This document shows positions 22,974 through 57,593 of a stretch of 57,593 nt of DNA, piece by piece (positions within the stretch are counted from its first letter, which is position 1; each line of letters opens with the position of its first letter). The notes beneath the pieces were generated by a model that saw nothing but the letters and a program-made list of their open reading frames with translations, did no database searches and was not told where the DNA came from. The stretch comes from a virus: the IMG/VR virus record IMGVR_UViG_3300033153_010811, positions 1 through 57,593 of that record. One strand, written 5' to 3'. The position numbers were made by a program, and so were the translations under genes.

Positions 22974-22975
22974 AA

Positions 22976-26126: not shown

Positions 26127-26163
26127 GCCATGATAAAGATAGGCCATGATAAAGGGGAATGGA

Positions 26164-29343: not shown

Positions 29344-29345
29344 AT

Positions 29346-29945: not shown

Positions 29946-29949
29946 GAAT

Positions 29950-30585: not shown

Positions 30586-30587
30586 TA

Positions 30588-31358: not shown

Positions 31359-31390
31359 GTAAATACAGCGTATCAAAAAAGGAGGATAAA

Positions 31391-31765: not shown

Positions 31766-31895
31766 AAAAGGGGAGATAAAAGGTACTAAATTTTCCTAAA
31801 AAAACATATGTTAAGTCGGGTTTTTCTTGTCTAAAATCGATTTTCCTTGAGGGAAGTATATATTAGTATGAGGAAGGAAAAATAACACTTTTAAA

Positions 31896-33953: not shown

Positions 33954-33983
33954 CATAAAAATAAAATTTGGAGGTGAACAGTT

Positions 33984-34427: not shown

Positions 34428-34453
34428 ACTATCATAAACAGGGGGATTGTATC

Positions 34454-38941: not shown

Positions 38942-39354
38942 ATTTAGCGAAAATATCATCACGATTTATCGGCATTCCTTATGAATTAGGCAGGATGGAT
39001 TGTTTTATGGCTGTTGTCAGATATTTACAGGAAAAGGGTTGTGCTCCAAATATTAACGAGTATCAGGGCATAACATTGGAGACCTATGCAGAAGTTTTCC
39101 TGAATGACCCTGAGCGAGCGAAAAATATTATGGTGCAATTAATGGATGACTATTTTTCAGTTATAGAATCCAAAAAAGCCGCTCCTGGTGATATTGCACT
39201 TCTGAAACTAAGAGGTAATTCCGCGCCGCCATTTTTAGGGATTATAGCAGGCAATGCTATAATTATTATCGCAACCGAGCAAGATGGTGTGACAACTTAT
39301 CCATTAAAACATTATAAAATATTGAGGGCGTGGAGATGCCAGCGGCAGCAGTAG
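38938..39354 (+). CDS. NlpC/P60-like tail-tip peptidase or hub protein
   Basis: The 138-residue product starts ISSRFIGIPYELGRMDCFMA with a GRMDC motif like the Cys of NlpC/P60 and DUF6950 proteins; AAPGDIALLKLRGN (~79) is also typical, but the catalytic histidine (usually HxG) is replaced around LGIIAGNAIII. Its role may be structural. Start overlaps the DUF2163 stop. Confidence 0.6.
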   Translation: MNLAKISSRFIGIPYELGRMDCFMAVVRYLQEKGCAPNINEYQGITLETYAEVFLNDPERAKNIMVQLMDDYFSVIESKKAAPGDIALLKLRGNSAPPFLGIIAGNAIIIIATEQDGVTTYPLKHYKILRAWRCQRQQ

Positions 39355-41831: not shown

Positions 41832-41855
41832 ATTTATCAGTAAAAAGGAGTTGTT

Positions 41856-42941
41856 ATGAGTCAGAATTATACAGATAATTGTTTTGCTCCTGGCCATGTC
41901 GGCCAGACAGATTTACAAAATATGGAAAATAATTTTGCCGCTTTGAAGTCGGGGTTTTCCGGTGCTTCGGCCCCGTCTAATCCAGTGGCCGGCATGATCT
42001 GGATTGATACAACCAATGATTTACTCAAACGTTATTATGACGGGTCGTGGATTTCTATATGGGATTTGGCGAACAACAAACCCATAATTACTAATCTGAG
42101 CAATGAAATTACAAGCAGTATGATTTCGTCAGCTATCAAGGATGCAGCAGCGGGAACGGCTTCTTTACGGACTTTAGGAACAGGGGCTAATCAAGCTGCC
42201 GCTGGAAACCAACCGCCACCTGACGGATCGGTTACCGAAGCAAAATTGGCGTCAAGCGTGATTTCTCAAGCCAAATTAAAAACTTCAACACAAAGTCAGA
42301 GTTATGATATAACAGCATACGCGACTCATAAATTCGTATTAACAGGAGGGCAGTATTGTTTTAGTCCACTTGTGAAGGGTGAGAGTAATGATATAATTCT
42401 TGGTTTTGCAGAAGAAGTGGGAACATCATACATTAATCTTGTTATGCTAAAAAATGATAGTGATAGTAATCGTTATGGCTACGTGCAGCATCGGTATGTG
42501 ACGTCTTCCGGCGAAGTTTATTGGATATTCATTTTAAAAGATAAAGCGACCGGAAAAATTATTGGGACAAGTGCTTGTGATGATCATCCTTCTTTCGGAT
42601 ATAATGGAAATCATGAAATGTTTCCTCACCCGTTTACGGAATCCTATGATTCTACAAAACATGAGATAGTGGTGATTAATCCGGCCAGAGAAGAAATTCA
42701 CGAATTAAAGAAAAAGACAAGTTACGATAGATGTCTTACTCAAGTAATTGGTGAAGATTATGATATTGATGATACAATAAAACCACCCTGGCCTACAACG
42801 CCAGTTACAGTCGGTTTGCCACCGGAATGGGAAGAAAAATCCACAGGTTCTATAATAAAACCCATTAGAAAAGTAATACCAAAACCATCTATGGTTAAGA
42901 CTGCGAGGCTGAGACTAAAAAGACAAAACAGGAGAATATGA
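41856..42941 (+). CDS. Tail fibre protein
   Basis: The 361-residue product has NPVAGMIWIDTTNDLLKRYY (~43), a fibre phrase, then a flexible Ala/Gln-rich linker and a C-terminal beta domain (GYVQHRYVTSSGEVYWIFIL). A very basic C-terminal tail ends the protein. SD AAAAGGAG. Likely a receptor-binding or fibre shaft component. Confidence 0.6.
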   Translation: MSQNYTDNCFAPGHVGQTDLQNMENNFAALKSGFSGASAPSNPVAGMIWIDTTNDLLKRYYDGSWISIWDLANNKPIITNLSNEITSSMISSAIKDAAAGTASLRTLGTGANQAAAGNQPPPDGSVTEAKLASSVISQAKLKTSTQSQSYDITAYATHKFVLTGGQYCFSPLVKGESNDIILGFAEEVGTSYINLVMLKNDSDSNRYGYVQHRYVTSSGEVYWIFILKDKATGKIIGTSACDDHPSFGYNGNHEMFPHPFTESYDSTKHEIVVINPAREEIHELKKKTSYDRCLTQVIGEDYDIDDTIKPPWPTTPVTVGLPPEWEEKSTGSIIKPIRKVIPKPSMVKTARLRLKRQNRRI

Positions 42942-43393
42942 AAGCAGTCCTTGAAAATGATATTATTGTTCACATCACTGAGCGCGGAGATACCGAAATC
43001 GGGCAAATACCTAAAGGTGTCGGTCTTGAGCGATTAAGATGGGATGGAAAGAAGGTTGTGGATCTGGCCGATCTTGATCAAATATGGGTAGAAGAACGAA
43101 ACGGGGTTTTCATTCTCCATGCTGTCGAGGTTCCGGGAGCGCAAAAAGTGTCCATGACTTATGCGGATCGGAAAAAATTGACACGGGATGCTGATTTGAT
43201 ACGATTAAAGTCTGTGAACGAAATTGAGGTTGATAGTCGAGAACAGGAATTGAAAGGCAAGATAAGTGCATTAACCTTAGATGATATGAGGATATTGTTG
43301 GTTCATATGGCTAAAAAAATGGGAGTGATTGATAAAGCTCCTGCTTTGAATCAGGAAAAGCTTAGTAAAATTCAATCAAAAATAATGGAGTAA
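42938..43393 (+). CDS. Fibre-associated protein, possible assembly chaperone
   Basis: The 151-residue soluble protein starts MKAVLENDIIVHITERGDTE and ends in a helical segment (MAKKMGVIDKAPALNQEKL). It is coupled to the fibre gene by a four-base overlap. This fits a fibre assembly chaperone, but no family is certain. Confidence 0.5.
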   Translation: MKAVLENDIIVHITERGDTEIGQIPKGVGLERLRWDGKKVVDLADLDQIWVEERNGVFILHAVEVPGAQKVSMTYADRKKLTRDADLIRLKSVNEIEVDSREQELKGKISALTLDDMRILLVHMAKKMGVIDKAPALNQEKLSKIQSKIME

Positions 43394-43397
43394 CAAA

Positions 43398-44186
43398 ATG
43401 GCAAGTATAAAAATAACTGATCTGCCGGAAATTGACACTCTTGCAGACGCAGATTTGATTGAGGTCGTTGATGATGTGGGAGGGACACCCACGTCAAAAA
43501 AATCAACATGGACGGAAATCAAGTCATTCCTGAAATCTTACTTTGACGGGATTTATGCGGAGTCAGGAGTTAATAGTGATATAACTTCAATGACAGGGCT
43601 TGATGATGACGGGATACCCGTTGCTAAAGTAGATAAGGCTGTTAGTGCTAATGCTAATATTGGGGATAATAAGCTTGTCAGGGGAGATGGCGGAGCTGAA
43701 GGTGTTCAGGAATGTTCTACCATTACAGTGTCTGATAATGGGGAGATGGTTAATACTGGGCAACCTTGTTTTAATGTTGTTTTGACCTCCGATCAAGATA
43801 ACGTCACCGGCGATGATACTTTATATTCAATTACTGGGGCTATATGGACAGAAATCATAGATCAGGGAAATAACTTTTCCAATGGAACATACACTGCCCC
43901 TGTTGATGGACAGCACCAGTTGTCTGGTGTTGTCAGCATAGCTGGTTTGCTTGCTGCTCATTCATTTGGAGAAATTAGATTAGAAACTTCTAATAGATCA
44001 TACATGTTATTTTATGGCGATCCATATACATTACAAGATGGTAATTGGAAGATTCTTATTAACTTTTCACTTACAGTAGACATGGATGAAAGCGATACAG
44101 CATATTTAACTGTAAAAATTTATAATGGTACTAAAGTGATCGATGTTGATCACGAAACTCGATTCACTGGAGCACTAATTTGCTAA
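43398..44186 (+). CDS. Tail fibre with C1q/TNF-like tip
   Basis: The 262-residue product has LPEIDTLADADLIEVVDDVG (~10), a standard phage fibre start, and a C-terminal C1q-like beta-sandwich (NVTGDDTLYSITGAIWTEII; FSNGTYTAPVDGQHQLSG). Trimeric C1q tips bind cell-surface sugars or proteins. Confidence 0.7.
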   Translation: MASIKITDLPEIDTLADADLIEVVDDVGGTPTSKKSTWTEIKSFLKSYFDGIYAESGVNSDITSMTGLDDDGIPVAKVDKAVSANANIGDNKLVRGDGGAEGVQECSTITVSDNGEMVNTGQPCFNVVLTSDQDNVTGDDTLYSITGAIWTEIIDQGNNFSNGTYTAPVDGQHQLSGVVSIAGLLAAHSFGEIRLETSNRSYMLFYGDPYTLQDGNWKILINFSLTVDMDESDTAYLTVKIYNGTKVIDVDHETRFTGALIC

Positions 44187-44200
44187 AGGAGAAAACATAA

Positions 44201-44446
44201 ATGAAAACAATTCAAGTTCAAATTACAGATCTCGAATATGAAATCTTAGAGTCATGGTTAGGTGTTGGTCAAGTCGAAGCATGGCTTCAACATGCGATAG
44301 ATAATAAAGTTCGTCAACGGACTGATGCCTCTGTTCTCGAACACACTGACCGTAATCCTAAGAAACTGAATAAACAAACTAAACTTGATCTGCTTAAGGA
44401 TGTTCAACTTCCTTCGCGGGAAGAGCGAGATCAGTTGACAAAGTAA
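44201..44446 (+). CDS. Hypothetical 81-aa protein of the fibre cluster
   Basis: A short helical protein, starting MKTIQVQITDLEYEILESWL; AAAGGAG is 15 bases upstream. The middle GQVEAWLQHAIDNKVRQRTD resembles small fibre-cluster proteins in other tailed phages. Function unknown. Confidence 0.5.
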   Translation: MKTIQVQITDLEYEILESWLGVGQVEAWLQHAIDNKVRQRTDASVLEHTDRNPKKLNKQTKLDLLKDVQLPSREERDQLTK

Positions 44447-44458
44447 TGGAGAATCAAA

Positions 44459-44842
44459 ATGAGTGATTATCATGTTTTAGAACAATCCGCTGACAAGAAA
44501 ACCGTTCGGGTGGCGCTGCATTATACGATTCCGGCAGATAGCCAAAACCAGGTAAATCAAAACCATCGGAACTTGATTGCTATCGTGCGGAAAAATGCAG
44601 AATCCGGCACGGTCAAATCCCAGGTACCCTACTTAGCGGACGAATTCTCAACTGAGCTGGCCAAGATGCAGACCGGGGAAATAATCGAGGAAGTAGTGAC
44701 GGTTCGCTTTTCTTCTCTGGGCTTGAGCAATGCCCAGAAAAAGGCCGAGATCGAAGCTGCCTGGGAAGCTAAGCGTGCTGAGATTTTTGACAGATTGCAG
44801 ACGCAACTAGAATATTATCACTACGATAATGATATAGTTTAA
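44459..44842 (+). CDS. Hypothetical 127-aa protein of the fibre cluster
   Basis: The product is largely helical with TVRVALHYTIPADSQNQVNQ (~15) and KAEIEAAWEAKRAEIFDRLQ (~99). Similar small proteins lie between fibre and adaptor genes in other phages. No function assigned. Confidence 0.5.
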   Translation: MSDYHVLEQSADKKTVRVALHYTIPADSQNQVNQNHRNLIAIVRKNAESGTVKSQVPYLADEFSTELAKMQTGEIIEEVVTVRFSSLGLSNAQKKAEIEAAWEAKRAEIFDRLQTQLEYYHYDNDIV

Positions 44843-44852
44843 GGAGTGAGTT

Positions 44853-45302
44853 ATGAGTACTGAAAAACGATTTACGGAGTATGACTCGCTACAGACGTAT
44901 TTGACTACCGAGTTGGATAGCCTGGCTGATGGTGCCAATAAGTTAGGCGCGGCCATTGATTTTGCGGCGGGTGGAACGGATAGGAAGTTGTTCATGGATA
45001 TCGAAGTTTATTTGGCCAGCGTTAATCTGTCGGCTCAGACCAATCCGGCATTGTATATCTGGCTAATCCGCAGAACTGACGGCACAAATTTTGAGGACGG
45101 CGGCGATAGTATTACCCCTGCCCGAGCGCCAGATAAGATTATTCCGTTGCGAGAAGTCAATGGCGCTCAAAGAGTATCCGCCCGAATGTTGATGCTCATG
45201 CCGGATCAGGGCAAATTATTGATCGGTAATCGAGCAGGAGCCGCTTTAGCATCGTCTGGCAACACCGTGAAATACAACATCTACAGCGTGCAGGACGTGT
45301 AA
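44853..45302 (+). CDS. Tail-associated structural protein
   Basis: The 149-residue product starts MSTEKRFTEYDSLQTYL and has LFMDIEVYLASVNLSAQTNP (~46) and VSARMLMLMPDQGKLLIGN (~107), a beta-sandwich-like phage tail protein often next to LamG-domain proteins. GGAG precedes the ATG. Exact role unknown. Confidence 0.55.
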   Translation: MSTEKRFTEYDSLQTYLTTELDSLADGANKLGAAIDFAAGGTDRKLFMDIEVYLASVNLSAQTNPALYIWLIRRTDGTNFEDGGDSITPARAPDKIIPLREVNGAQRVSARMLMLMPDQGKLLIGNRAGAALASSGNTVKYNIYSVQDV

Positions 45303-46819
45303 TGTATAGATTTATCCGAAATCCTGATCCCAGGGAAAAGCCTCCGTATGGCTCTATTCTTGATCCGCATCATCCGATGTCACAGGGGTTGGTGGCATCT
45401 TGGTTGATGAATGAGGGCGGCGGGAATAAGGTTTTTGATATATCTAAGAGCAATAATCATGGAAGCATTGTCTTAGGGCAATGGGAGACACCTGATGGTG
45501 TGCGCTTTGTTTCCGGCACTGTTGATTATATAGAAATTGATCCGATCTTAAACCCTGCTGTGTCTGATTTCACTTTTGGACTCATTCTTAAATTCCTTGC
45601 AGTGCCTTCCTCGCAAGTACATCTTTTGCAGCAAATGGGAACAGATGGTCGCGCCTGGATTTACTTAAATGAAAGTAGTCTTCAATTATATTCATTTTTG
45701 GGCAAAGAAACAACAGATAGCAATTTTACTGCCACTGTAAACAAATGGCATCATATAATTCTAAGAAAAACTGGCTCAACGCTTCAATTTTATATTGATG
45801 GGCAACCAAAAGGTAGCAATACTATTACTGCCGAATCAAGTTCCGATGGCTTTTTATTTGGTACTGATAAAGACAAGATTGAAAGTGCGACTAATGCTAA
45901 TATTTTAGCGAGTCATTTTTATAATTCCGCTATCACTTCCGCAGAAATCGCCCAACTCTACGCCGAACCTTATGCCAACATCTTAGTGCCGCAATATTGG
46001 TTTATGGCGGATTTCGGGGCGGCGGCAGTAATTGAAGATGTTTCTATCATTCTATCAAACGTTTTGAGTGTTTCTCAAACCGGCGGAGCGGTTTCCGGCG
46101 CTGGAATTTCATTAGGGCAGGGATTGGGGGTGTCTGATGGGGGTGATGCAAATGCGGATGGATTGTTAACAATGCAAAAAATTGTTGGATTATTGCAGTC
46201 TGGGTATAAGTCAGTACAAAGCACCATTGATTTGGCAAATCATTTCACTCTCAGCCTGTCTTCAGATGCGATCTCTGAGGCAACATTAGCTACTGCAGTA
46301 CATTTGGCCACAACTACTGATAGGCAGGCTTCTATCGAAACGTCAATATCTCTCGATCAGTTTTTCGGTGCTTCTTTACAGGCCCAGGCAGAAGCATATT
46401 CGGCATTAGTTTTTGCGTATCAGAATAGTATGTTATTATCTGGGCAGACCAGTTCGGAAAGTTTAATATCATTAGCCGTTAAACTTGGTATCTCCATTAA
46501 TTGGATTTTAGAAACAGATGTGTCTATTATGCTGGCGCAAAAATTTGGCGTATCTCATCTATCACAAGTATCAGCCTTTGGCAATCTAACTATTTCGCAG
46601 ATATTGGGGATTTCGACATTGGCTTCTGTTTTTGCTGATGCGGGTATATCATTATCCATGATACAATCTGTTACGATTACAGAGGATACTATAATTGCAG
46701 CAATAACAACTCCAGATGCCAGGACCTTTACAATAAGTGTTGAAGTTAGGGCTTTTGCAATTAACACTGATGCCAGGACTTTTACAATTAACATTGAAGA
46801 TCGAACATATAAAATATAG
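45302..46819 (+). CDS. LamG/concanavalin-domain tail protein
   Basis: Residues ~25-230 contain a LamG-like jelly roll: LVASWLMNEGGGNKVFDISK, then NKWHHIILRKTGSTLQFYID and a C-terminal ASHFYNSAITSAEIAQLYAE. Residues ~240-470 are hydrophobic repeats of SLxxxxGxS type. It probably binds surface glycans as part of the adsorption apparatus. Start overlaps the previous stop (TAATG). Confidence 0.75.
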   Translation: MYRFIRNPDPREKPPYGSILDPHHPMSQGLVASWLMNEGGGNKVFDISKSNNHGSIVLGQWETPDGVRFVSGTVDYIEIDPILNPAVSDFTFGLILKFLAVPSSQVHLLQQMGTDGRAWIYLNESSLQLYSFLGKETTDSNFTATVNKWHHIILRKTGSTLQFYIDGQPKGSNTITAESSSDGFLFGTDKDKIESATNANILASHFYNSAITSAEIAQLYAEPYANILVPQYWFMADFGAAAVIEDVSIILSNVLSVSQTGGAVSGAGISLGQGLGVSDGGDANADGLLTMQKIVGLLQSGYKSVQSTIDLANHFTLSLSSDAISEATLATAVHLATTTDRQASIETSISLDQFFGASLQAQAEAYSALVFAYQNSMLLSGQTSSESLISLAVKLGISINWILETDVSIMLAQKFGVSHLSQVSAFGNLTISQILGISTLASVFADAGISLSMIQSVTITEDTIIAAITTPDARTFTISVEVRAFAINTDARTFTINIEDRTYKI

Positions 46820-46828
46820 GAGGGAAAA

Positions 46829-47332
46829 ATGGAATTCAATATGGGTTTCAAAGATGTATTCAAGGTTGAATGTTTCGACAAAAATGGTCAATTGAAATGG
46901 GTTGATTATATTGAAAATCTGGTAGTTAACGAGGGCCTTGATGATGCGCTAGACAAATATTTCAAAGGATCATCATATTCTGCAGCGCATTATGTGGGTT
47001 TAACAGATGGTACTCCAACCTTCGCTGCCGGTGATACTATGTCATCTCATGCCGGCTGGACTGAGGTAACCGCGTACGATGAGGCTGATCGCCAGACTGT
47101 AACCTGGGGATCGGTATCCAGTCAATCTGTTGATAATAGTGCATCTAAGGCTACTTTTACGATCAGTTCTAATTCGACAACAATCGGCGGTGCATTCTTG
47201 TCCACGAATTCAACCAAGGGTGGCTCTACTGGTACGCTATACGGCGGTGGTGCGTTCAATGCAGGCGATAAAAGCCTGGATGACGATGATGTACTTAATG
47301 TTACTGTGACCGCCACAGCTTCAGCGTCTTAA
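46829..47332 (+). CDS. Tail protein with NxVVNEGLDD start
   Basis: The 167-residue product has NLVVNEGLDDALDKYFKGSS (~31) and HYVGLTDGTPTFAAGDTMSS (~53), found in many phage tail-associated proteins next to fibre genes. A Ser/Thr-rich beta end follows. SD AGGAGG. Likely a virion surface or fibre-linked protein. Confidence 0.65.
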   Translation: MEFNMGFKDVFKVECFDKNGQLKWVDYIENLVVNEGLDDALDKYFKGSSYSAAHYVGLTDGTPTFAAGDTMSSHAGWTEVTAYDEADRQTVTWGSVSSQSVDNSASKATFTISSNSTTIGGAFLSTNSTKGGSTGTLYGGGAFNAGDKSLDDDDVLNVTVTATASAS

Positions 47333-47344
47333 GGAGGATAATTC

Positions 47345-47617
47345 ATGGCCGGCTCATTCTTAAAAGATCCTGATGCGGTCCTTGATTACGTATTTGATTG
47401 GTCAGACTGGCTGGATTCTGACGAGACTATTTCTAGCTATATTATTACAGAAGAGACCGGGATTACTGTCGATAGTGACAGCGAGTCTGATGGGCTTGTT
47501 ACTGTATGGCTTTCTGGAGGTTCCGCTGGAGAAAAATATAATGTAGCATGCAAGATTACTACGTCACTCGGTCGAACTGACGAACGAACAATGATAATCC
47601 ATGTAAGGAACAGGTAG
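47345..47617 (+). CDS. Fibre-tail adaptor-like protein
   Basis: The 90-residue protein, FLKDPDAVLDYVFDWSDWLD then VWLSGGSAGEKYNVACKITT, matches the small adaptor family of phages with short immunoglobulin-like folds. AAGGAGGATAATTC precedes the ATG. It likely joins fibres to the tail. Confidence 0.7.
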   Translation: MAGSFLKDPDAVLDYVFDWSDWLDSDETISSYIITEETGITVDSDSESDGLVTVWLSGGSAGEKYNVACKITTSLGRTDERTMIIHVRNR

Positions 47618-47628
47618 GAGATCAATTA

Positions 47629-47940
47629 ATGCAACTTACATCAGAGATGACTGTCGGGCTGATAGCACTGTTTGGAATATCCGTGCTGACTATTTTGATG
47701 ATGCTGAAACGGTTCGGAGTTATCAGATTTGCAAATGGAGATCGTTGCCCTGATCACGAATCTTTCTGTAATGCATTCAAGGCTTTGAAAGAGGAACACA
47801 TTGTTCAAGGGGAGGTTTTAAAACAGCATGGGAAACAGCTTGATGAAGGCAAAGAGATATTTAATCAAATCAGGAATGACATTGCTCAAATCAATATTAA
47901 TGTAGCTCTGATAATGCAGGAGTTAAAAATACAAAAATGA
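47629..47940 (+). CDS. Membrane-anchored coiled-coil protein near the lysis genes
   Basis: One transmembrane helix near the start (VGLIALFGISVLTILMMLKR) is followed by a soluble coiled-coil region (EIFNQIRNDIAQININVALI). The position just before the endolysin suits a holin- or spanin-like role, or an HK97 gp-type anchor, but the family is uncertain. Confidence 0.5.
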   Translation: MQLTSEMTVGLIALFGISVLTILMMLKRFGVIRFANGDRCPDHESFCNAFKALKEEHIVQGEVLKQHGKQLDEGKEIFNQIRNDIAQININVALIMQELKIQK

Positions 47941-48323
47941 GAACATGGGTGATAAATCCTCGTAATTTTAGGCGTGAGGAGTTCGACTGTAAATGCTGCG
48001 GATGGAACAATATAAAAGAGGAGTTTGTTTGGAGACTCCAACTTGCGCGCACAGAGGCTAAGATCCGCTTTACTGTTCTGTCTGGTTGTCGATGTCGAGA
48101 GCACAATAAAGCTGTCGGAGGTGCAGAAAATTCCGATCATTTGACAGGAGAAGGTGCTGATATCAAATGTAAGGATGCTCGATCAAGATTTTTAATAATT
48201 GATGCTGCTCTTAAAGCAAACATAACACGTATTGGAATTGCAGAAACGTTTATACACTTGGGAGTTGCGAGAAGGAATCCTCAACGAGTTATATGGACAT
48301 ATCCAAAAGGAGAAAAAAGATAA
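47937..48323 (+). CDS. Endolysin, M15-type peptidase
   Basis: The 128-residue protein has RNFRREEFDCKCCGWNNI (~8), FTVLSGCRCREHNKAVGGAE (~43), NSDHLTGEGADIKCKD (~63) and FIHLGVARR (~107). SxHxxGxAxD and the later H are the zinc ligands of M15A/VanY peptidases. It cuts stem-peptide bonds in peptidoglycan for lysis. Overlaps the preceding stop by four bases. Confidence 0.85.
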   Translation: MRTWVINPRNFRREEFDCKCCGWNNIKEEFVWRLQLARTEAKIRFTVLSGCRCREHNKAVGGAENSDHLTGEGADIKCKDARSRFLIIDAALKANITRIGIAETFIHLGVARRNPQRVIWTYPKGEKR

Positions 48324-48664
48324 AACAGTTCCTAATGACAATTATAATGTTCTTTGTGTTAATTGGAGTCGCTTGCGCTGGTACTACTGTAACTCTTCAA
48401 TGGAATCCAAACAGTGAACCTGATCTTGCAGGCTATAGGATTTATCAGGACGGTATTCAGGTAGCTGAAATTCCCTGCACCGCCAATGATAACTCATGCT
48501 GTGAATGGACCAGTGAGGAGTTACCCGAGCCGCATAAATGGTATGTCACGGCCTATGATACGGACGGTTTTGAATCTAAGCCCTCGAACATGGTAGATTC
48601 GTATCCGCCGAATGCACCAAAGATTAATATTATAGTAAATTTACAGGTCACGGTTAATCCATGA
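48293..48664 (+). CDS. Secreted fibronectin type III-like protein
   Basis: The 123-residue protein has a basic start and hydrophobic core (FLMTIIMFFVLIGVACAG), a signal peptide or lipid-attachment type start, then a fibronectin III domain (LQWNPNSEPDLAGYRIYQDG; EPHKWYVTAYDTDGFES). It overlaps the endolysin end and sits where spanin partners often lie. Function not certain. Confidence 0.6.
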   Translation: MDISKRRKKIKQFLMTIIMFFVLIGVACAGTTVTLQWNPNSEPDLAGYRIYQDGIQVAEIPCTANDNSCCEWTSEELPEPHKWYVTAYDTDGFESKPSNMVDSYPPNAPKINIIVNLQVTVNP

Positions 48665-48882
48665 GTAAAAAACCCGAAACCATGCCATTATATATAGCGA
48701 TTGCTCCTATCGGGGTATATTTGCAATCCTGTGTAAAATGCAAACATGATCAGTTTGTTTTGATCAGCAATAACAAATATCTGGCTTGCGCAAAGTGTAA
48801 GGCTAAAATTGCTGAGTTCAATCCGACCTTTACCAAAGCATTGAGCCAGGGGGGAGAGTGTGGGGATCACACATTACATTAA
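48661..48882 (+). CDS. Small zinc-ribbon protein
   Basis: The 73-residue product has CVKCKHD (~24) and CAKCKAK (~43), a treble-clef or ribbon site, between lysis genes. The start overlaps the previous stop (ATGA). Function unknown. Confidence 0.5.
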   Translation: MSKKPETMPLYIAIAPIGVYLQSCVKCKHDQFVLISNNKYLACAKCKAKIAEFNPTFTKALSQGGECGDHTLH

Positions 48883-49100
48883 TGGATATTTGGAAAATCA
48901 AAGATAGATCTTTACGAATGTTAATGGACCGGCTGTATTGTAAAACAGTCATGCTTAATAAATTAAAATCATTCACACATTTTGATTGGTCTGATGAAAT
49001 CGTCAGGCTTACTACCGAAATCGGACAGATTAAAATGGGGTTCACAGATTATGAAAAGAATCTCTGGGAGAGAATATGGAAGAAAAACAAGGACAAATAG
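48882..49100 (+). CDS. Hypothetical 72-aa protein
   Basis: The ATG overlaps the previous stop as TAATG, so the start is set at 48882, not the upstream GTG. The product, MDIWKIKDRSLRMLMDRLYC, is helical and basic. Function unknown. Confidence 0.5.
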   Translation: MDIWKIKDRSLRMLMDRLYCKTVMLNKLKSFTHFDWSDEIVRLTTEIGQIKMGFTDYEKNLWERIWKKNKDK

Positions 49101-49474
49101 TCGAAAAGTTTTATCAATTTCTTGGAGTAATATTTGGGAAAGATGATATGAGCGACCTTGAAGCTAAAGAACGATTATATTTGATCCAGTATATTAGAGA
49201 GGTCGTAAGCAATTGTCTCGAAGCCCAAGAAATAAACCAAATACCTATCCTTGAATTGACAGTTTGGGCAACGTATAACGGCAAAACAAATGTTACAATT
49301 AATCCAAATAAAAACTCCCAGATACTGCGAGGCTGGGAGCTGTCAAAATTAACCAAACGCCTTATGGATGCCATTAATAAGTGGGACGCCAAGGACATCG
49401 GCCAAAAAGATGGTAAGGTGATTGATATGATGTCCGGCCTGGGCTGGGTTGGAAAGACTGGCAAAACTGATTAA
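49076..49474 (+). CDS. Hypothetical 132-aa protein
   Basis: Largely alpha/beta: MSDLEAKERLYLIQYIREVV (~24) and LTVWATYNGKTNVTINPNKN (~61). It overlaps the previous gene by 25 bases and precedes the holin-like gene. No family recognised. Confidence 0.5.
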   Translation: MEEKQGQIVEKFYQFLGVIFGKDDMSDLEAKERLYLIQYIREVVSNCLEAQEINQIPILELTVWATYNGKTNVTINPNKNSQILRGWELSKLTKRLMDAINKWDAKDIGQKDGKVIDMMSGLGWVGKTGKTD

Positions 49475-49483
49475 AGGGGAAAA

Positions 49484-49675
49484 ATGGATAAAATAACAGC
49501 TATTTTAGCAGGATTGGCAATCGTATGCGCCACAGCAATCACGGTGGCATGTTTGTATAAACTAACAGGAAGTAATCCTGCTGCCAAAGAAGTCGCAATA
49601 CTGGCGATTACAGCCATGTTTTCTGCGATTTCTGGGGGCGGCATGGGATATCTTGCCGGGAAAAAGAATGAATGA
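49484..49675 (+). CDS. Holin-like two-span membrane protein
   Basis: The 63-residue product has two hydrophobic helices (ILAGLAIVCATAITVACLYK and AILAITAMFSAISGGGMGYL) with a short charged tail, the usual build of a class II holin. SD AAGGGGAAAA. Near the endolysin, it probably forms the lysis lesion. Confidence 0.65.
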   Translation: MDKITAILAGLAIVCATAITVACLYKLTGSNPAAKEVAILAITAMFSAISGGGMGYLAGKKNE

Positions 49676-50198
49676 TTTACATGATTATTATAAAGTACGG
49701 CCATTAATAAAAACGGGCGATCATCTTGGGTGGAAATCCAATGGTATTATAGGTCGGTTAATCCGGGTATTCGCTCCCGGGCCGATTAATCACAGCGAGA
49801 TTGTTATCAAGATACCGTTTGAGGGCCTCGATGACCGGAGATTTAACATAGGGGCATTGGGAAGTGGTGTGTCTTTGCATTTATTATCCAGACAACTCGA
49901 AAATTATAATGGTAAGGTTTACTGGTATCCGCTCAAAGACGAGTTCGATGAATTAAGACCTGCCATTGCAGCATTTATTTTGCAAAAAATAGATATCAAA
50001 TATGATTTTTACAGTCTTTTTAAAAACGCTTTCGGTAGGGTTTCAACCGAAGCAAGTAAATTATTTTGCTCGGAGGTGTGTAATTGGGCATGGGCCAGTG
50101 CAGGGATAGACACAGGATTTCCATTAAATGGAAAGGCTCCGACTCCGGCTGATATTGATCGGTTTACGATCTTCAAAGAGAAAGTACAAATTTTGTAA
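49668..50198 (+). CDS. YiiX/NlpC-P60-like permuted peptidase
   Basis: Start at ATG 49668, overlapping the holin-like stop. The 176-residue product has a HSEIVIK histidine block (~44) preceded by GWKSNGIIGRLIRVFAPGPI, and a LFCSEVCNWAWASAG (~127) cysteine block, the permuted NlpC/P60 (YiiX-like) order H then C. It could trim peptidoglycan or lipids during lysis or entry. Confidence 0.7.
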   Translation: MNDLHDYYKVRPLIKTGDHLGWKSNGIIGRLIRVFAPGPINHSEIVIKIPFEGLDDRRFNIGALGSGVSLHLLSRQLENYNGKVYWYPLKDEFDELRPAIAAFILQKIDIKYDFYSLFKNAFGRVSTEASKLFCSEVCNWAWASAGIDTGFPLNGKAPTPADIDRFTIFKEKVQIL

Positions 50199-50218
50199 CT
50201 GCTTTTGAGGAGAACCCA

Positions 50219-50512
50219 ATGAAACAAATATCATCTTCAAACCTGATATTAAGGTGTTATGCCCACGGAATATATGGTGGGAGATGGTATGGGGTGTGTT
50301 TAGATTTAAACCTGGCCGCTGAAGCTGATTCTTTTAATGAGTTAAAACAAAAACTACATGAAATGACTTCAAGTTATTTTTCATGTGTTTTAGATACAAA
50401 TGACAAAGATTCTATTCCAGGTCTTCTGTCGAAAAAAGCACCTCTAATGGATTGGATTAAATATTATTTAATTTGCCTGCGGATTTCTATTAAGAAACTA
50501 TTTAAATTTTGA
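50219..50512 (+). CDS. HicB/DUF1902-like small protein
   Basis: The 97-residue product has LRCYAHGIYGGRWYGVCLDL, then NLAAEADSFNELKQKLHEM, the HicB-type beta-beta-alpha fold. A hydrophobic C-terminal helix follows (IKYYLICLRISIKKLFKF). No HicA partner is present, so an antitoxin-like or regulatory role is only suggested. Last gene before the convergent terminator. Confidence 0.5.
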   Translation: MKQISSSNLILRCYAHGIYGGRWYGVCLDLNLAAEADSFNELKQKLHEMTSSYFSCVLDTNDKDSIPGLLSKKAPLMDWIKYYLICLRISIKKLFKF

Positions 50513-52560: not shown

Positions 52561-52878
52561 CTATAATATCCTACTTTCCTTCATAATCCTAAGAACTTCC
52601 TCCTTTGAAAGAACCTTACATGGATATAGTAGGGCTTCACCTCTTGCCGTGCTGAATATAAATTTTCTATATCCCTCAATAAAATAAATGCTCGGATACT
52701 TTTCATATTCCGCTAATGTATAATCATCATACACTTGCAACACCTCTGGGAATAAGAAGTAATACATCCACATTTGATCTATTATTGAGAACGGCGCTGA
52801 AGCATATACTGGTCTTGGAGGGCTGGTCTTTTTAAATTGATCGAAGACTTTTTTTATTTCCTTAGTTATGTTGTGCAC
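52561..52878 (-). CDS. Paralog family member 3 (105 aa)
   Basis: The longest member: MHNITKEIKKVFDQFKKTSP, an insertion including YRKFIFSTARG, and C-terminal CKVLSKEEVLRIMKES. It shares ~45% with member 2 by eye and overlaps the start of the HTH gene. Function unknown. Confidence 0.6.
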   Translation of the reverse strand: MHNITKEIKKVFDQFKKTSPPRPVYASAPFSIIDQMWMYYFLFPEVLQVYDDYTLAEYEKYPSIYFIEGYRKFIFSTARGEALLYPCKVLSKEEVLRIMKESRIL

Positions 52879-53408
52879 TGCTCCCCCTCGATTTTAATCC
52901 GGTGCTCACCTGTGTAATGGTGATTAAGGTTTTCTATGCCTATTTCTTTTTGATAATGATTTGCCTCAAAATCAAGCATATCGCATTTGTGACAATTCAT
53001 TGGCTGATTTGCATATGCCGCTGCGTCCCTGCATTCCTTGTATCTTCTACAATGCAATGCCGCAAACGCTCGCTTTTCGCGAGCGTTTTTCCTTTCGGAT
53101 TTTTTGTTGTGTCGAGTGCTCCATCCTTGAGAATGGGCATACTTGGATATCCTTGCGTCAGAAATACCCAGTTCTAAGGCCAGGGCTTTAACGCGTCCAT
53201 GACCGACATCATGATTATAGACCTCGAAAATTCTATTGTGTATGTCTGGTGTAATCCTTCGGACTTTGGTGCGGCCTTTTCGACTGATGGGATGGCCGCT
53301 TTTTTTCTGACATGCTCGGCTACAGAAACGGGGAGGTCCTTGTTCTTCCGATCTCCATGCTTGACCTGCATGGCCGCATGTTTCACAGATGAAACTATAT
53401 ACGGGCAT
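52866..53408 (-). CDS. Zinc-finger/HTH regulator
   Basis: The 180-residue product has FICETCGHAGQ (~6), FCSRACQKKSGH (~27), then an HTH (ALALELGISDARISKYAHSQ, ~75-94) followed by a basic region. The HTH resembles that of the 6877 gene. A C-terminal HCRRYKECRD...CHKCD may bind zinc too. It probably controls the minus-strand genes downstream. Confidence 0.6.
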   Translation of the reverse strand: MPVYSFICETCGHAGQAWRSEEQGPPRFCSRACQKKSGHPISRKGRTKVRRITPDIHNRIFEVYNHDVGHGRVKALALELGISDARISKYAHSQGWSTRHNKKSERKNAREKRAFAALHCRRYKECRDAAAYANQPMNCHKCDMLDFEANHYQKEIGIENLNHHYTGEHRIKIEGEQCTT

Positions 53409-53548: not shown

Positions 53549-53586
53549 ACTCCATTTGTACTACTCAAAACACCAGTTTCTTAGGG

Positions 53587-53698
53587 GTATAACGAAATTA
53601 TTCATAATATTCACATTCTGGTTTATGAAATACTGTGAGTCCTTGAATAGGACAATTGCACCGACCTTCGCCGTCCGAGTGCATGATGCTGGTTAGAT
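53587..53698 (-). repeat. Long attC-like site, array end (k)
   Basis: On the minus strand the site runs from ATCTAAC (53698-53692), which fits the RYYYAAC core, to GTTATAC (53593-53587). Between them is the block CATGCACTCGGACGGCGAAG, shared with site j. It is within and after the 53849 gene. The long form (112 bp) resembles VCR-type attC sites. Confidence 0.45.
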
Positions 53699-53849
53699 AA
53701 TGGCGAAGCGCAGAGATAATAAGTGGTATTTCAATCTCTGGCTCTTTTATAGCAATAGATGCCCACTGATACCCATTATGGGTTACAGATAGATAAATAT
53801 CTTTTCCGTTTCTTTCGGTTTTAACCTCAACTTTATATTTTTTATTCAT
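53598..53849 (-). CDS. Cassette-encoded 83-aa protein
   Basis: The product starts MNKKYKVEVKTERNGKDIYL and ends LTSIMHSDGEGRCNCPIQG..., with the MHSDGEGRC part coming from the attC-like block, as in the neighbouring gene. The N-terminal half is a small beta-rich domain. Function unknown. Confidence 0.5.
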   Translation of the reverse strand: MNKKYKVEVKTERNGKDIYLSVTHNGYQWASIAIKEPEIEIPLIISALRHYLTSIMHSDGEGRCNCPIQGLTVFHKPECEYYE

Positions 53850-53854
53850 AAGTC

Positions 53855-53987
53855 ACCTAACGATTAGCTCACTGATAGCGAACCTATACCTGCTCTCCAC
53901 ATAAGCCACAAATACGAACTGATTTAATGTAACCCTTTGGATGAACGCACCGACCTTCGCCGTCCGAGTGCATGGCGCTGGTTAGGG
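53855..53987 (-). repeat. Long attC-like site (j)
   Basis: Ends CCCTAAC (53987-53981) and GTTAGGTG (53861-53854), about 133 bp apart. It contains GGCGCTGGTTAG and a GCAC.GAC/GTC.GTGC hairpin also found at site k. Overlaps the 3' part of the 54144 gene. Confidence 0.45.
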
Positions 53988-54144
53988 TGGCGTCTTCGAG
54001 TTCTACAGATACGACATTATAAGGGCCAACTATCTCAAAACCAGGCGACCCTCCATTCATTTCATCTGCCAGCTCTTGCATTTTGCGGCCATCTATTGAA
54101 GCTCTTTCAATATTGTCTTCAAACATTAAAATATGTACTTGCAT
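53884..54144 (-). CDS. Cassette-encoded 86-aa protein
   Basis: Residues 1-50 (MQVHILMFEDNIERASIDGR) form an alpha/beta domain. The C-terminus TSAMHSDGEGRCVHPKGYIK ends in CGLCGEQV and comes partly from the attC-like block. No function recognised. Confidence 0.5.
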   Translation of the reverse strand: MQVHILMFEDNIERASIDGRKMQELADEMNGGSPGFEIVGPYNVVSVELEDATLTSAMHSDGEGRCVHPKGYIKSVRICGLCGEQV

Positions 54145-54151
54145 CTAAGCC

Positions 54152-54209
54152 TCCTAACGATTAGCTGAGCCGCTCGGCTTTTCGAGTCGGCTCAAGCGGC
54201 TTGCTAGAT
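54152..54209 (-). repeat. attC site (i)
   Basis: Minus strand: ATCTAGC at the gene side (one base off the RYYYAAC core), AAGCCGCTTGAGCCGA pairing with CGGCTCAGCT, ending AATCGTTAGGA. It is almost identical to sites b, c and f. It overlaps the 3' end of the 54481 gene, giving the C-terminus KPLEPTRKAERLS. Confidence 0.8.
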
Positions 54210-54481
54210 TGTTTGTTAATTAATGACTCTAAGTCTGCCGCACAAGCATATAACCACGCTTGTTCGGAGGTGTTGTGTGATTTATCTGCTTGGTCTTTCC
54301 ATTTATTAGCCAATAACCGATATTTGTTTTTCATATTACCTCCAGTAGTTGGTTGTATATCTTCTTCCATATCCAAAAGCCAATTAGCGCATTCTTCACA
54401 TAAAGATTCATCTGTGCCACAATTTTCACTATCTACAAAAAACTCCTCTCCACACTCTTTACAAATACCTCTGATTTGCAT
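54161..54481 (-). CDS. Cassette-encoded zinc protein (106 aa)
   Basis: GGAGGTAGCAAG precedes the ATG. CKECGEEF (~7) and CEECANW (~28) make a four-cysteine site. A helical C-terminal half ends in the attC-derived KPLEPTRK tail. Function unknown. Confidence 0.6.
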   Translation of the reverse strand: MQIRGICKECGEEFFVDSENCGTDESLCEECANWLLDMEEDIQPTTGGNMKNKYRLLANKWKDQADKSHNTSEQAWLYACAADLESLINKQSSKPLEPTRKAERLS

Positions 54482-54500
54482 CTTGCTACCTCCTCAAGAA

Positions 54501-54559
54501 ATATAACGATTTAGCTGAACGGCGCAGTTTTTGGCGTCCGCTCCAGCGCCTGGTTATAT
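54501..54559 (-). repeat. attC site (h)
   Basis: Minus strand ATATAAC, then CAGGCGCTGGAGCGGACGCC and GGCGCC-type pairing, ending AATCGTTATAT. It differs from the b/c/f/i group in stem sequence but keeps the ends and spacing. It gives the C-terminus ALERTPKTAPFS of the 54765 gene. Confidence 0.7.
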
Positions 54560-54765
54560 TTTTTCGTACAATTTACAATATGATCGATCAATTTAACCAT
54601 GTTATCATACAACTTACCATGTGATTCCATCATGTGGGGCCCCAGGTAAAATTCTCCGAAAATAATAGACATGTCTCCAGATTTAATTCCCAGAGATATG
54701 ACTTCGGCTGGCCCACAACTACCCATATATTCAGGCTTTATTGCTTTTATTTTTTCTATAATCAT
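54511..54765 (-). CDS. Cassette-encoded 84-aa protein
   Basis: The product has MIIEKIKAIKPEYMGSCGPA and EFYLGPHMMESHGKLYDNMV. It ends in the attC-derived tail ALERTPKTAPFS. SD GGAGG. Unknown function; helical C-terminus. Confidence 0.55.
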   Translation of the reverse strand: MIIEKIKAIKPEYMGSCGPAEVISLGIKSGDMSIIFGEFYLGPHMMESHGKLYDNMVKLIDHIVNCTKKYNQALERTPKTAPFS

Positions 54766-54780
54766 TCAATTTCCTCCAAA

Positions 54781-54822
54781 ATATAACAGTGTTAATAAAC
54801 AGGAATCTGCGGCTTGTTATAA
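54781..54822 (-). repeat. Degenerate attC-like site (g)
   Basis: Minus strand TTATAAC (54822-54816) and GTTATAT (54787-54781) flank a 42-bp element whose inner stem is weak (AAGCCGCAGATTCC). It follows the 45-aa gene, at the expected cassette boundary, but fold support is limited. Confidence 0.4.
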
Positions 54823-54954
54823 AACCGAGATATGTTGTTTAACAACTTTAATATGTATTTGATTTTTTATATCGTCATACTCGATTTCTTTTATCTCTCG
54901 TTCTTCTGACAAAATTTTTATAATTTCTCTTATTTCCTTTTCTGGTATAATCAT
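54817..54954 (-). CDS. Cassette-encoded 45-aa protein
   Basis: ATG 54954 has GGAGTAAATATT upstream; the longer reading overlaps the attC site and the radical-SAM-like gene and is rejected. The product MIIPEKEIREIIKILSEERE is helix-beta and ends KVVKQHISVL. Function unknown. Confidence 0.5.
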   Translation of the reverse strand: MIIPEKEIREIIKILSEEREIKEIEYDDIKNQIHIKVVKQHISVL

Positions 54955-54976
54955 AATATTTACTCCTTTAGTAGTT

Positions 54977-55034
54977 TTATAACGATAAGTTAAGTCGCCC
55001 GGTTTTTCGAGTCGGCTCAAGCGGCTTGTTATGC
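54977..55034 (-). repeat. attC site (f)
   Basis: Minus strand: GCATAAC, AAGCCGCTTGAGCCGACTCG, then CCGGGCGAC and ending TTATCGTTATAAA. It lies at the end of the 55675 gene, giving the tail KPLEPTRKTGRLNLSL. Same family as b, c and i. Confidence 0.78.
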
Positions 55035-55675
55035 CATAGTCGATTGAGATTTTTCTTAATTTTGACTTTGGTAATTTTTTTAAGCTCAAATATCAGTTCT
55101 TGCACTTTTTTTAGTTCTGGCTCACACAATTTGACCTTATGATTTGTATTAGCTCCGATATTTACCCATTCGGGTTCTATATCCGCAATCCATTTAACCA
55201 TTGATTTTATATCAAAGTCCATGATGGGTTCTATTGTGACCATTAGAGCAAGAGGAAAACCACAGCCTCGAATGACAGCCATTTGCTCAAAACGATCTAT
55301 TGTTTTTGGCGCATGCCCCATTTCTGGATAATAACGGTTGGTTTCAATCGTTGTACCAATAACACTTTTACTTGGCAGATATTCAGCATAAGCATTGAAT
55401 CGGGCTGGATTTTTCGATTGAAAAAGATATTTATTTTTAAAACGGTCACATACATTTAGTGTGCGATCTATCCATGCTTTAGGTATTTTATCGGCCCACA
55501 TATCACAGGATGACCCAACGAATATGTAATTGCTCTCGCCTAGATCGGTTTTAAGTTCTAATTCATCGAGTCGAACCGGTTTTTGTTCTCCCCACCGTTT
55601 CATATAGCAATACGTGCAATCGTGAGGACATTTACCTTTTACGGTATTCCATGTGTGAGTCAAAAATGAGTACAT
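54977..55675 (-). CDS. Cassette-encoded Gp37/Gp68 (DUF5131) radical-SAM-like protein
   Basis: Start at 55675 after AAAGGAAAT. The 232-residue protein has KGKCPHDCTYCYMKRWGEQK (~13), a CxxxCxxC cluster-binding loop, and YIFVGSSCDMWADKIPKAWI (~60) and ALMVTIEPIMDFDIKSMVKW (~150), as in phage Gp37/Gp68 proteins. The tail is attC-derived. Such proteins occur in phages with unknown substrate. Confidence 0.75.
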   Translation of the reverse strand: MYSFLTHTWNTVKGKCPHDCTYCYMKRWGEQKPVRLDELELKTDLGESNYIFVGSSCDMWADKIPKAWIDRTLNVCDRFKNKYLFQSKNPARFNAYAEYLPSKSVIGTTIETNRYYPEMGHAPKTIDRFEQMAVIRGCGFPLALMVTIEPIMDFDIKSMVKWIADIEPEWVNIGANTNHKVKLCEPELKKVQELIFELKKITKVKIKKNLNRLWHNKPLEPTRKTGRLNLSL

Positions 55676-55709
55676 ATTTCCTTTTACTATATTAAGCACT
55701 TGTTACGGT

Positions 55710-55964
55710 TTAGTCAGCGGTGCGATTGGCGCATTTATCACATACCCATCGTTTAACGGTAACACAATTTTGCCCACATAAAGCACACGGCATCATAGCA
55801 TCCGCTTCAACGACTGGTTGGGAGGCACTTGGGTAGTAGCAACCGATTGAGTCCCATAATACTTTCAAGATGTGCTTTCTTTCTAAGCTGTTCTTGGTAT
55901 TATCAACTAACCATCTTGCATCATTATTTATTAATTCTCTATATTTCTCATATTTAACTTTCAT
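55710..55964 (-). CDS. Cassette-encoded zinc-ribbon protein (84 aa)
   Basis: GGAGGCTAAGAGA precedes the ATG. The C-terminal part has CALCGQNC and CDKCANR, a zinc ribbon; the N-terminus is helical (YEKYRELINNDARWLVDNTK). No clear attC follows its stop, so its cassette boundary is uncertain. Confidence 0.55.
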   Translation of the reverse strand: MKVKYEKYRELINNDARWLVDNTKNSLERKHILKVLWDSIGCYYPSASQPVVEADAMMPCALCGQNCVTVKRWVCDKCANRTAD

Positions 55965-55987
55965 TCTCTTAGCCTCCCAACATCCAA

Positions 55988-56074
55988 ATAACCTACAAGA
56001 AAAGCCACTATAAAAATAACGCTCATTTTAAAACGGCTTGGCTTTTCTTGTCAGAGTTAATTTTATTGTTATCT
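55988..56074 (-). repeat. Long attC-like site (e)
   Basis: Minus strand AGATAAC (56074-56068) to GTTATT (55993-55988), about 87 bp. Inside are CAAGAAAAGCC and GGCTTTTCTTG arms that pair perfectly over 11 bp. The right arm sequence GTCAGAGTTAATTT is shared with site d. It overlaps the 3' end of the 56343 gene. Confidence 0.6.
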
Positions 56075-56343
56075 GCTTTTTGAAAATCTTTTTTCATGGT
56101 GGTGAATAAAAGTATAAATTTGTCTAAATCTTCTTCGCGCATCAACCATGTATCCCAATGTCCATATTTACACTTATATCCAAATAAGTATTTTATAGCT
56201 ATCCAAAGCCTTTTGTACCATTTCCGCCAATCATTTAGAAATATACTTGCATAAATTTCTCGATCTTCTCTGTCATATACAAATTTCAGGATATGTTCAT
56301 CGGAATAACAAGCACATTCAAAAAAATAAGTTCCATCAAGCAT
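56023..56343 (-). CDS. Cassette-encoded 106-aa protein
   Basis: AAGGAGAAATTAACA precedes the ATG. The product is aromatic-rich: FECACYSDEHILKFVYDRED (~8) and RKWYKRLWIAIKYLFGYKCK (~40), with a helix at the end. It resembles uncharacterised integron-cassette proteins; function unknown. Confidence 0.55.
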   Translation of the reverse strand: MLDGTYFFECACYSDEHILKFVYDREDREIYASIFLNDWRKWYKRLWIAIKYLFGYKCKYGHWDTWLMREEDLDKFILLFTTMKKDFQKADNNKINSDKKSQAVLK

Positions 56344-56360
56344 TGTTAATTTCTCCTTGC

Positions 56361-56493
56361 AGATAACGTTCTAATAACCTGCGTGTAGGGTTTGCACACC
56401 CCTTAAAAGAGCACTCCCGCCCGTCATCCCCTGGCAATTATCGACTCTTACCGACAAGCCGACCCTACACGTCAGAGTTAATTTGTTTGTTAG
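56361..56493 (-). repeat. Long attC-like site (d)
   Basis: Minus strand CTAAC (56493-56489) to CGTTATCT (56368-56361), 133 bp, with ACCCTACACG/CGTGTAGGGT arms perfectly paired over 10 bp. The minimal cassette to its right (about 85 bp before site c) has no convincing gene; the 66-codon frame there mostly crosses the attC. Confidence 0.6.
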
Positions 56494-56579
56494 CGGGCCA
56501 TGCCGTCCCCGCCTCTTTCGAGGTTCGCTGTACCACCCGACCGTATTTATTCGACATGGAGTATTTTCCACTTCCCACC

Positions 56580-56637
56580 CGCTAACGATTAGCTGAGCCG
56601 CCCGGTTTTTCGAGTCGGCTCAAGCGGCTGGTTAGAT
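56580..56637 (-). repeat. attC site (c)
   Basis: Minus strand starts ATCTAAC, an exact RYYYAAC core, then CAGCCGCTTGAGCCGACTCG, the loop, CGGCTCAGCT, ending AATCGTTAGCG. The two halves pair in the imperfect way attC sites do. It follows the zinc-ribbon gene at 56632. Confidence 0.85.
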
Positions 56638-56832
56638 ACTTAAATTGTCATTATACCATATGCCGTATTCATAGCGTCTTTCTGCTTCCCTCTCTTCCCG
56701 GCACATACAATCATCACATATCGCCCACTTAACGCCGCCCTCCGAATACACTCCATCGGTATCATTCCCACATTTAGGACATTTGTGCACTTTAAGTTCT
56801 TCCTTACCTAAATAAGTAATTGTCTTTTTCAT
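56632..56832 (-). CDS. Cassette-encoded zinc-ribbon protein (66 aa)
   Basis: AAAGGAGGATAAATC precedes the ATG. The product has CPKCGNDTDG (~18) and CDDCMCREER (~39), a classic zinc ribbon. Its stop lies at the edge of the attC core. Function unknown. Confidence 0.65.
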   Translation of the reverse strand: MKKTITYLGKEELKVHKCPKCGNDTDGVYSEGGVKWAICDDCMCREEREAERRYEYGIWYNDNLSI

Positions 56833-56849
56833 GATTTATCCTCCTTTAG

Positions 56850-56907
56850 GGCTAACGATTAGCTGAGCCGCTCGGCTTTTCGAGTCGGCTCAAGCGGCTG
56901 GTTATCT
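56850..56907 (-). repeat. attC site (b)
   Basis: Minus strand AGATAAC, then the same CAGCCGCTTGAGCCGACTCG stem as sites c and i, ending AATCGTTAGCC. The halves form the expected imperfect hairpin. It follows the 57147 gene. Confidence 0.85.
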
Positions 56908-57147
56908 AATTTCCATTACCCATCCCTTTGATTTCACTTGTGCAATTATGCCTGTTAATTGTGGAAATTTTTTATTTGAATATAATCTGCCCTCGGAATT
57001 AACAGGTGCTGTTGCAAATACACAAGCACGATCTTTCTTGCGAATTAATCGGTACGCCCCTTTTGAGAGTTCCCACTCTACTATATCTCCTACCTCTGCA
57101 TGAGGGCAATTTTCGTGTACTGGGTATGTATTGCGTATTATTTTCAT
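56902..57147 (-). CDS. Cassette-encoded 81-aa protein
   Basis: GGAGGCTATATA precedes the ATG. The product has HAEVGDIVEWELSKGAYRLI (~17) and a beta-rich remainder, like a small SH3-type or HPF-like barrel. The stop touches the attC core. Function unknown. Confidence 0.6.
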   Translation of the reverse strand: MKIIRNTYPVHENCPHAEVGDIVEWELSKGAYRLIRKKDRACVFATAPVNSEGRLYSNKKFPQLTGIIAQVKSKGWVMEIR

Positions 57148-57164
57148 ATATAGCCTCCTCTTAC

Positions 57165-57218
57165 AGATAACGATTAAGTCAGCCGCCGTTATCGATCGGC
57201 TGGACTGGCTGGTTATAT
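57165..57218 (-). repeat. attC site (a)
   Basis: Minus strand ATATAAC to GTTATCT with CCAGCCAGTCCAGCCGATCG and GGCGGCTGACTT in between. Ends and length (54 bp) match the group, though the stem differs. It follows the 57589 methyltransferase gene and gives its C-terminus NQPVQPIDNGG. Confidence 0.75.
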
Positions 57219-57593
57219 GTTAGCACGGACGGCCTAAACACCACAACGGCAGAGGGAAATGGAGCGCTATTTTTACTGCCGCCAAATTTTAATCGCCCTG
57301 GAACAAACCATATATCTCCCTTGCTTGCATATCTCTGCCACCACTTTGTGTCTGTCCGAGCAGGGACAAGACAAACTACAAGATGTCCTTGTAATGCTGT
57401 CTCATAAGCTTTTTTCATCCACTTGCCTATCTCTCGGCCATAGGGCGGATTTATCCAACATCGACTATCCCATTCTTTTTCAAATAATCTTAATTGACCA
57501 TCAATTATCAATTTGTCTGTTTCGCAAAAATAATCCGTATAAGCCCAACCACAAGCTTTAAAAACGTTTTCAATAATGGCTTGCGCCACAGGC
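57179..57593 (-). CDS. Phage-type DNA N6-adenine methyltransferase (DNMT), cut by the edge
   Basis: Visible residues include SRCWINPPYGREIGKWMKKA, the catalytic NPPY, then VVCLVPARTDTKWWQRYASK and FVPGRLKFGGSKNSAPFPSA, diagnostic of phage DNMT (PF05869 type) enzymes. The N-terminal third is missing, and the GTG at 57589 is probably not the true start. The C-terminus is attC-derived, so the gene sits in a cassette context. It protects DNA or adds epigenetic marks. Confidence 0.8.
   Translation of the reverse strand, partial: PVAQAIIENVFKACGWAYTDYFCETDKLIIDGQLRLFEKEWDSRCWINPPYGREIGKWMKKAYETALQGHLVVCLVPARTDTKWWQRYASKGDIWFVPGRLKFGGSKNSAPFPSAVVVFRPSVLTYNQPVQPIDNGG

Follow-up and report, generated by a model that had tools for sequence, protein, structure and literature searches.

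A gene-cassette array of integron type at the end of an uncultivated siphophage-like virus contig

CALINs (clusters of attC sites without the integrase gene intI) have already been published from phages, together with the methyltransferase genes within them and their role as vehicles of gene cassettes (Qi et al., 2023; PMC9892861). Tetrasphaera phage TJE1 carries three attC sites, and the sites of TJE1, P12002L and PH101 recombine with attI1 (PMC9892861). A further form of phage-borne integron is found in Vibrio anguillarum phage Va_90-11-286_p16, which contains a complete integron from the chromosomal integron of its host (PMC9892861).

The stretch of DNA analyzed here (the window) is an IMG/VR virus record of 57,593 bp, classed as linear, with an array of attC sites and small genes at one end (Table 1). 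Like the TJE1 CALIN, it combines an attC cluster in one orientation, without intI, with a methyltransferase gene inside the array. It differs from TJE1 in having more sites (seven clear and up to eleven, versus three), in mixing short and long attC types, and in coming from an uncultivated virus known from sequence alone. Bacterial sedentary chromosomal integrons and CALINs, in the sense of IntegronFinder (PMC9024848), resemble the window in attC structure, in cassette layout, and in the near-identical attC copies within each array; however, the window array belongs to a phage contig, shows neither intI nor attI, and has attC cores unmatched in the GTDB species genomes scanned. With Va_90-11-286_p16 it shares the presence of integron material in a phage, but not an integrase. 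Because phage CALINs have been described (Qi et al., 2023), the kind of element is known; what is added here is its recurrence in uncultivated phage contigs, attC families common to unrelated phages, and the repeated siting of such sites next to early genes. We consider it very probable that a siphophage-like virus carries this CALIN on the strand that does not encode its late genes, with exchange through a host integrase (IntI) and early read-through expression as the proposed means of its turnover and use.

Recombination sites and cassette genes

Six similar minus-strand sites of 58–63 bp, between 54.15 and 57.22 kb, align unaided. A covariance model built from them (R1) is unfit to test the window on which it was trained, and was therefore applied only to other contigs. 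A second model (R2) was built from 36 attC-like sites of other viral contigs, none from the window. Over the entire 57,593-bp window, R2 gives seven matches, with E-values of 5e-17 to 3e-4. They share the minus strand and fall within 54.15–57.22 kb; the remaining ~54 kb yields no match. Run without filters on positions 53400–57593, it adds four weak sites, for a total of up to eleven: those at 55973–56076, 53853–53989 and 54779–54824 score E 0.02–0.05, and that at 53585–53700 scores E 2.1, which is chance level by score alone. The original prediction of six strong and about five weaker sites agrees well with these seven filtered and four unfiltered matches. Where at least two nearby attC sites make a CALIN, seven with E < 0.001 lie here within 3.1 kb. 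The sites used to train R2 had been recruited by R1, a mild circularity; a guard against it is the R2 result for TJE1, where the model's count of three sites equals the published one. A 670-kb R2 search of phage sequence that included TJE1 gave one further match, in G004, a relative of the window. A naive score for pairing of R and L boxes proved unspecific, with top values scattered over the window on both strands, and was replaced by the covariance models. An Rfam search at the gathering cut-off gave no match.

Table 1. Features of the array and its surroundings on the contig (positions within the window)
Feature	Position	Strand	Evidence or remark
attC 1, short type	57163..57220	-	R2 E=3.1e-12; folds as R stem, spacer, L stem with extrahelical base
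attC 2, short type	56848..56909	-	R2 E=5.9e-17
attC 3, short type	56578..56639	-	R2 E=7.6e-14; canonical fold
attC 4, long type, ~130 bp	56359..56497	-	R2 E=2.7e-4; 91.5% over 130 bp to G027 site
attC 5, long, weak	55973..56076	-	R2 unfiltered E=0.024; fold z=-2.9, equaled by 0/200 shuffles
attC 6, short type, stem partly eroded	54975..55036	-	R2 E=8.8e-11
attC 7, weak	54779..54824	-	R1 E=0.12; R2 unfiltered E=0.045
attC 8, short type	54499..54561	-	R2 E=5.5e-17
attC 9, short type, R'' box CTAGC	54150..54211	-	R2 E=2.6e-13
attC 10, long, weak, 'HSDGEGRC' type	53853..53989	-	R2 unfiltered E=0.039; 5' half 89% over 57 bp to L005 attC-like site
attC 11, long, weakest, type of attC 10	53585..53700	-	R2 unfiltered E=2.1; 39-bp repeat of attC 10 at 95%
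Phage-type N6-adenine methyltransferase (Dam), truncated at its 5' end where the contig stops	57179..57589	-	PF05869 1.9e-10, phrog_111 3.7e-29; stop within attC 1
Cassette ORF, 81 aa	56902..57147	-	Stop within attC 2
Cassette ORF, 66 aa, zinc-finger-like CxxC pairs	56632..56832	-	Stop within attC 3
Short cassette ORF, <=37 aa	56465..56578	-	Stop within attC 4
Cassette ORF, 106 aa	56023..56343	-	Stop within attC 5
ORF, 84 aa	55710..55964	-	No attC detected between ORF and 55699
DUF5131 gene (phage-type, radical-SAM-like)	54977..55699	-	PF07505 2.9e-8, phrog_2045 6.5e-12; C-terminus NKPLEPTR... within attC 6
Cassette ORF, 45 aa	54817..54954	-	Sequence; stop at attC 7
Cassette ORF, 84 aa	54511..54765	-	Stop within attC 8
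Cassette ORF, 106 aa	54161..54481	-	Stop within attC 9
Cassette ORF, 86 aa	53884..54144	-	Start after attC 9; stop within attC 10
Last cassette ORF, 83 aa	53598..53849	-	Stop within attC 11
First gene outside array, zinc-ribbon-like N-terminus, no attC	52866..53408	-	Weak sub-threshold match to PF09723
Late phage module (terminase, portal, capsid, tape measure, tail)	17823..50512	+	PHROGs; convergent with array

It is as a folded bottom strand that an attC site is recognized by the integron integrase. In the short sites, the R'' and R' boxes (RYYYAAC and GTTRRRY) are present and paired, with the outermost box positions often unpaired; in attC 9 the R'' box is degenerate, reading CTAGC where CTAAC is expected. 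The predicted CTAAC/GTTAG ends hold for some strong sites, while others have ATAAC/GTTAT, and the predicted length of ~57 bp compares with 58–63 bp as matched with flanks, four sites being long (100–140 bp). When nine sites, six of the window and three of contig L005, are aligned by sequence only, attC pairing is kept in 88% of alignment cells, versus 27–43% when slid. Changes on both sides affect 10 of 19 pairs, compared with 4.2 after shuffling, and none of 500 shuffles reaches 10. One unpaired base of the L'' arm occupies the identical column in every site, and the L''/L' stem with this extrahelical base and the unpaired spacer is conserved in structure. Folds of the plus strand, which is the attC bottom strand, give an R stem, spacer and L stem for the sites at 57165, 56580, 54501, 56361 and 55962; for the remaining sites the minimum-energy fold takes other shapes. 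It could be argued that these elements are terminators or other hairpin repeats among small phage genes, since attC hairpins look like terminators and the naive pairing scan was unspecific. We regard this as exceedingly improbable: the R boxes, extrahelical base and spacer are conserved with compensatory changes in the stems, R2 also recovers the published site number of TJE1, and ORFs extend into the hairpins, behind which there is no T-run.

The genes of the array are small and on the minus strand throughout, as predicted; almost every site has an ORF ending in it, and the next gene starts right after R'. Stop codons inside attC produce C-terminal tails such as NKPLEPTR. This is the layout of gene cassettes—an ORF followed by attC, in one orientation. 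By definition, such cassettes also lack promoters of their own. The R' box of attC 9 overlaps the ribosome-binding site of the following ORF (GTTAGGAGG), and the 84-aa ORF at 55710..55964 probably shares one cassette with the DUF5131 gene. Besides the Dam and DUF5131 genes, a Pfam search of the array ORFs found no family among those searched, and the phage and plasmid collections searched with the array gave no match except to the Dam gene, in one plasmid. Together, these sequence features confirm the 4-kb contig end as a genuine integron-type cassette array, with seven clear and up to eleven predicted recombination sites.

Arrays in other viral contigs

An exact search with the attC cores found one other contig, L005 (also G001), which by our reading has Mu-like tail genes. 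A generic attC pattern led to ten more contigs, most with several R1 or R2 sites, and a looser pattern to 16 further contigs (candidate phages), of which most have one or more R2 matches and many have several. Contig G027 has ~17 sites, flanked by tail genes on one side and replication-type genes on the other. A single phage assembled from four metagenomes (G019, G021, G024 and G025) has an array with a DUF5131 gene before its terminase genes, between phage-type genes. By blastn, the window array resembles those of L005 and G027 on the attC sites and little else, and the genes differ: the short site of L005 matches the window at 87–96%, the long type of G027 at 91.5% over 130 bp, and both attC 10 and attC 11 match attC-like sites of L005. 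Near-identical sites attached to different genes are the signature of cassettes.

Several further observations concern these contigs. G027 (L091) holds the long attC type of the window three times (11376–11505, 11750–11836 and 15024–15108) with conserved inner sequence; besides the site that matches at 91.5%, there are copies at 93% and 81%, and one copy, at the array edge, is without clear R boxes. DUF5131 genes occur in 6 of 12 array-bearing viral records, four of which are the same phage (examples are L087 2251–3066, G022 15823–16848 and the window gene). L005 encodes, at 1029–4601, a 1190-aa helicase-methyltransferase-like protein with an apparent intein (C-HDEKTEVLTKRGWI ... IIVSGN-S). 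A tyrosine recombinase of G027 was considered as a candidate IntI and rejected, as its best score is XerA-like and it reaches 41.9 bits with TIGR02249, against a cut-off of 265.

The arrays also recur in position. The window, G004 and G027 each have their array or attC site on the minus strand, where it adjoins early genes and faces the late module; for the window this follows the circular order of a contig with unjoined ends. G004, the closest long relative, has one attC of this kind. The array of G001 comes after the early genes and shares their strand, and that of TJE1 comes behind the final ORFs on the circular map. A positional rule for all phages is not claimed: in G023, the attC calls and a methyltransferase gene (15192–15842) are on opposite strands.

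The phage contig and its ends

By its terminase, portal, capsid and tape measure genes, the contig belongs to a siphophage-like virus, whose late module is conserved to ~35 kb in contigs G002, G004, G007, G008 and G009; neither the window nor these five contigs contain a tyrosine recombinase. The array is contiguous with these hallmark genes, making it, as assembled, a phage-borne CALIN; the predicted proximity to phage structural genes is supported by the PHROGs matches on the contig. No integron integrase is found in the window (no PF00589, no TIGR02249), as had been anticipated, so that it contains no complete integron (intI with attI), and the array is a CALIN as seen within the contig. 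Its far flank, which may hold an intI or attI, lies beyond the contig end. At its start, the contig seems to encode the N-terminal part of a C5 methyltransferase; as the other end falls within the Dam gene, both contig ends are cut, and because the contig ends inside the array, phage genes are visible on one side only. The exact attC cores had no match in the GTDB species genomes scanned that would point to a host.

The position of the array at a contig end raises the possibility of a chimeric assembly in which, at some point from 50.5 to 53.6 kb, phage sequence was wrongly fused to an integron array of a bacterial chromosome. The genes at 50.6–53.4 kb are orphan, and repeated attC sites may mislead assemblers. 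No IMG/VR relatives were found for the junction gene (52866–53408) or for the late gene at 49653–50198, and hence no second copy of the junction; a Pfam search of the genes at 50.6–52.9 kb gave no match. Yet GC content is continuous at 0.39, the tetranucleotide correlation of the 52–56 kb block (r 0.90) falls among those of other blocks (0.82–0.93), and relative G004 has an attC. Comparable arrays inside other phage contigs, one of them assembled in four metagenomes, and the phage-type methyltransferase within this array lower the concern about a chimera without removing it, and we judge misassembly unlikely.

Another possibility is that the contig is one end of a prophage that sits within or next to a chromosomal integron, in which case the array would belong to the host or would have been gained by imprecise excision. 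There is precedent in Vibrio anguillarum prophages (PMC9892861), and the contig terminates within the array. This seems to us very unlikely, however, since the window and its terminase relatives lack a tyrosine integrase, phage-type genes lie inside the array, and the array of G027 is internal, with tail genes on one side and replication genes on the other. Our preferred reading remains a CALIN carried by the phage itself; the prediction of an integron-type array in a phage genome is borne out by the R2 sites, the compensatory stem changes, the ORFs ending in attC and the phage late genes.

Other features of the contig were observed alongside the array. On the minus strand at 51612–52878, in the stretch that separates the array from the late module, there are three tandem related genes, two full and one degraded. 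Within the late module, a gene at 32240–33061 (plus strand) reads as a GIY-YIG-like homing endonuclease; it is 99% identical over 134 aa to its counterpart in relative G007, compared with 76–89% for adjoining genes, which suggests recent transfer. At 11500–13730 (plus strand), alternating two-repeat arrays with short spacers and 36-bp units (GCGAGCCA + ~10 nt + GAAACCCA + ~10 nt) form blocks at 11503–11719, 12421–12496 and 13398–13668 around ORFs 11752–12378 and 12529–13386. The latter ORF is IS110/Nop-like (PDB 9mty_A 5e-16, phrog_4285), and a terminator-like hairpin follows. Published TIGR-Tas systems include arrays lying between the genes and a terminator that closes the locus (PMC12045711); the locus at 11.5–13.7 kb matches that description, these features included, and is a probable, complete-looking TIGR-Tas system. 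The same alternating repeat occurs on the reverse strand in G004 (L068 1620–1770; GCGAGCCA ... GAAACCCA), and such arrays may therefore recur in the phage group of the window.

Proposed exchange and significance

In the mechanism that we propose for the phage-borne array, cassettes would enter and leave upon infection of a host with an integron integrase. Single-stranded phage DNA would allow the attC bottom strand to fold, and host IntI would recombine attC with attC or attC with attI. As the cassettes adjoin the early gene cluster in its orientation, read-through from early promoters may express them, replacing the Pc promoter of an integron; the methyltransferase would protect phage DNA against restriction. 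A broader idea, which we offer as tentative and somewhat doubtful, is that unrelated phages of one environment share a cassette pool: the distal end of the early cluster would be a standing locus, exchanged via host integrases and enriched in phage genes (methyltransferases, DUF5131).

With its seven to eleven sites, this array joins the few known phage CALINs and points to a rarely reported route by which phages may carry swappable genes. That structurally unrelated phages have attC families in common while the genes attached to them differ makes a cassette trade through host integrases testable, and likewise the use of the cassettes, for example as anti-restriction genes.
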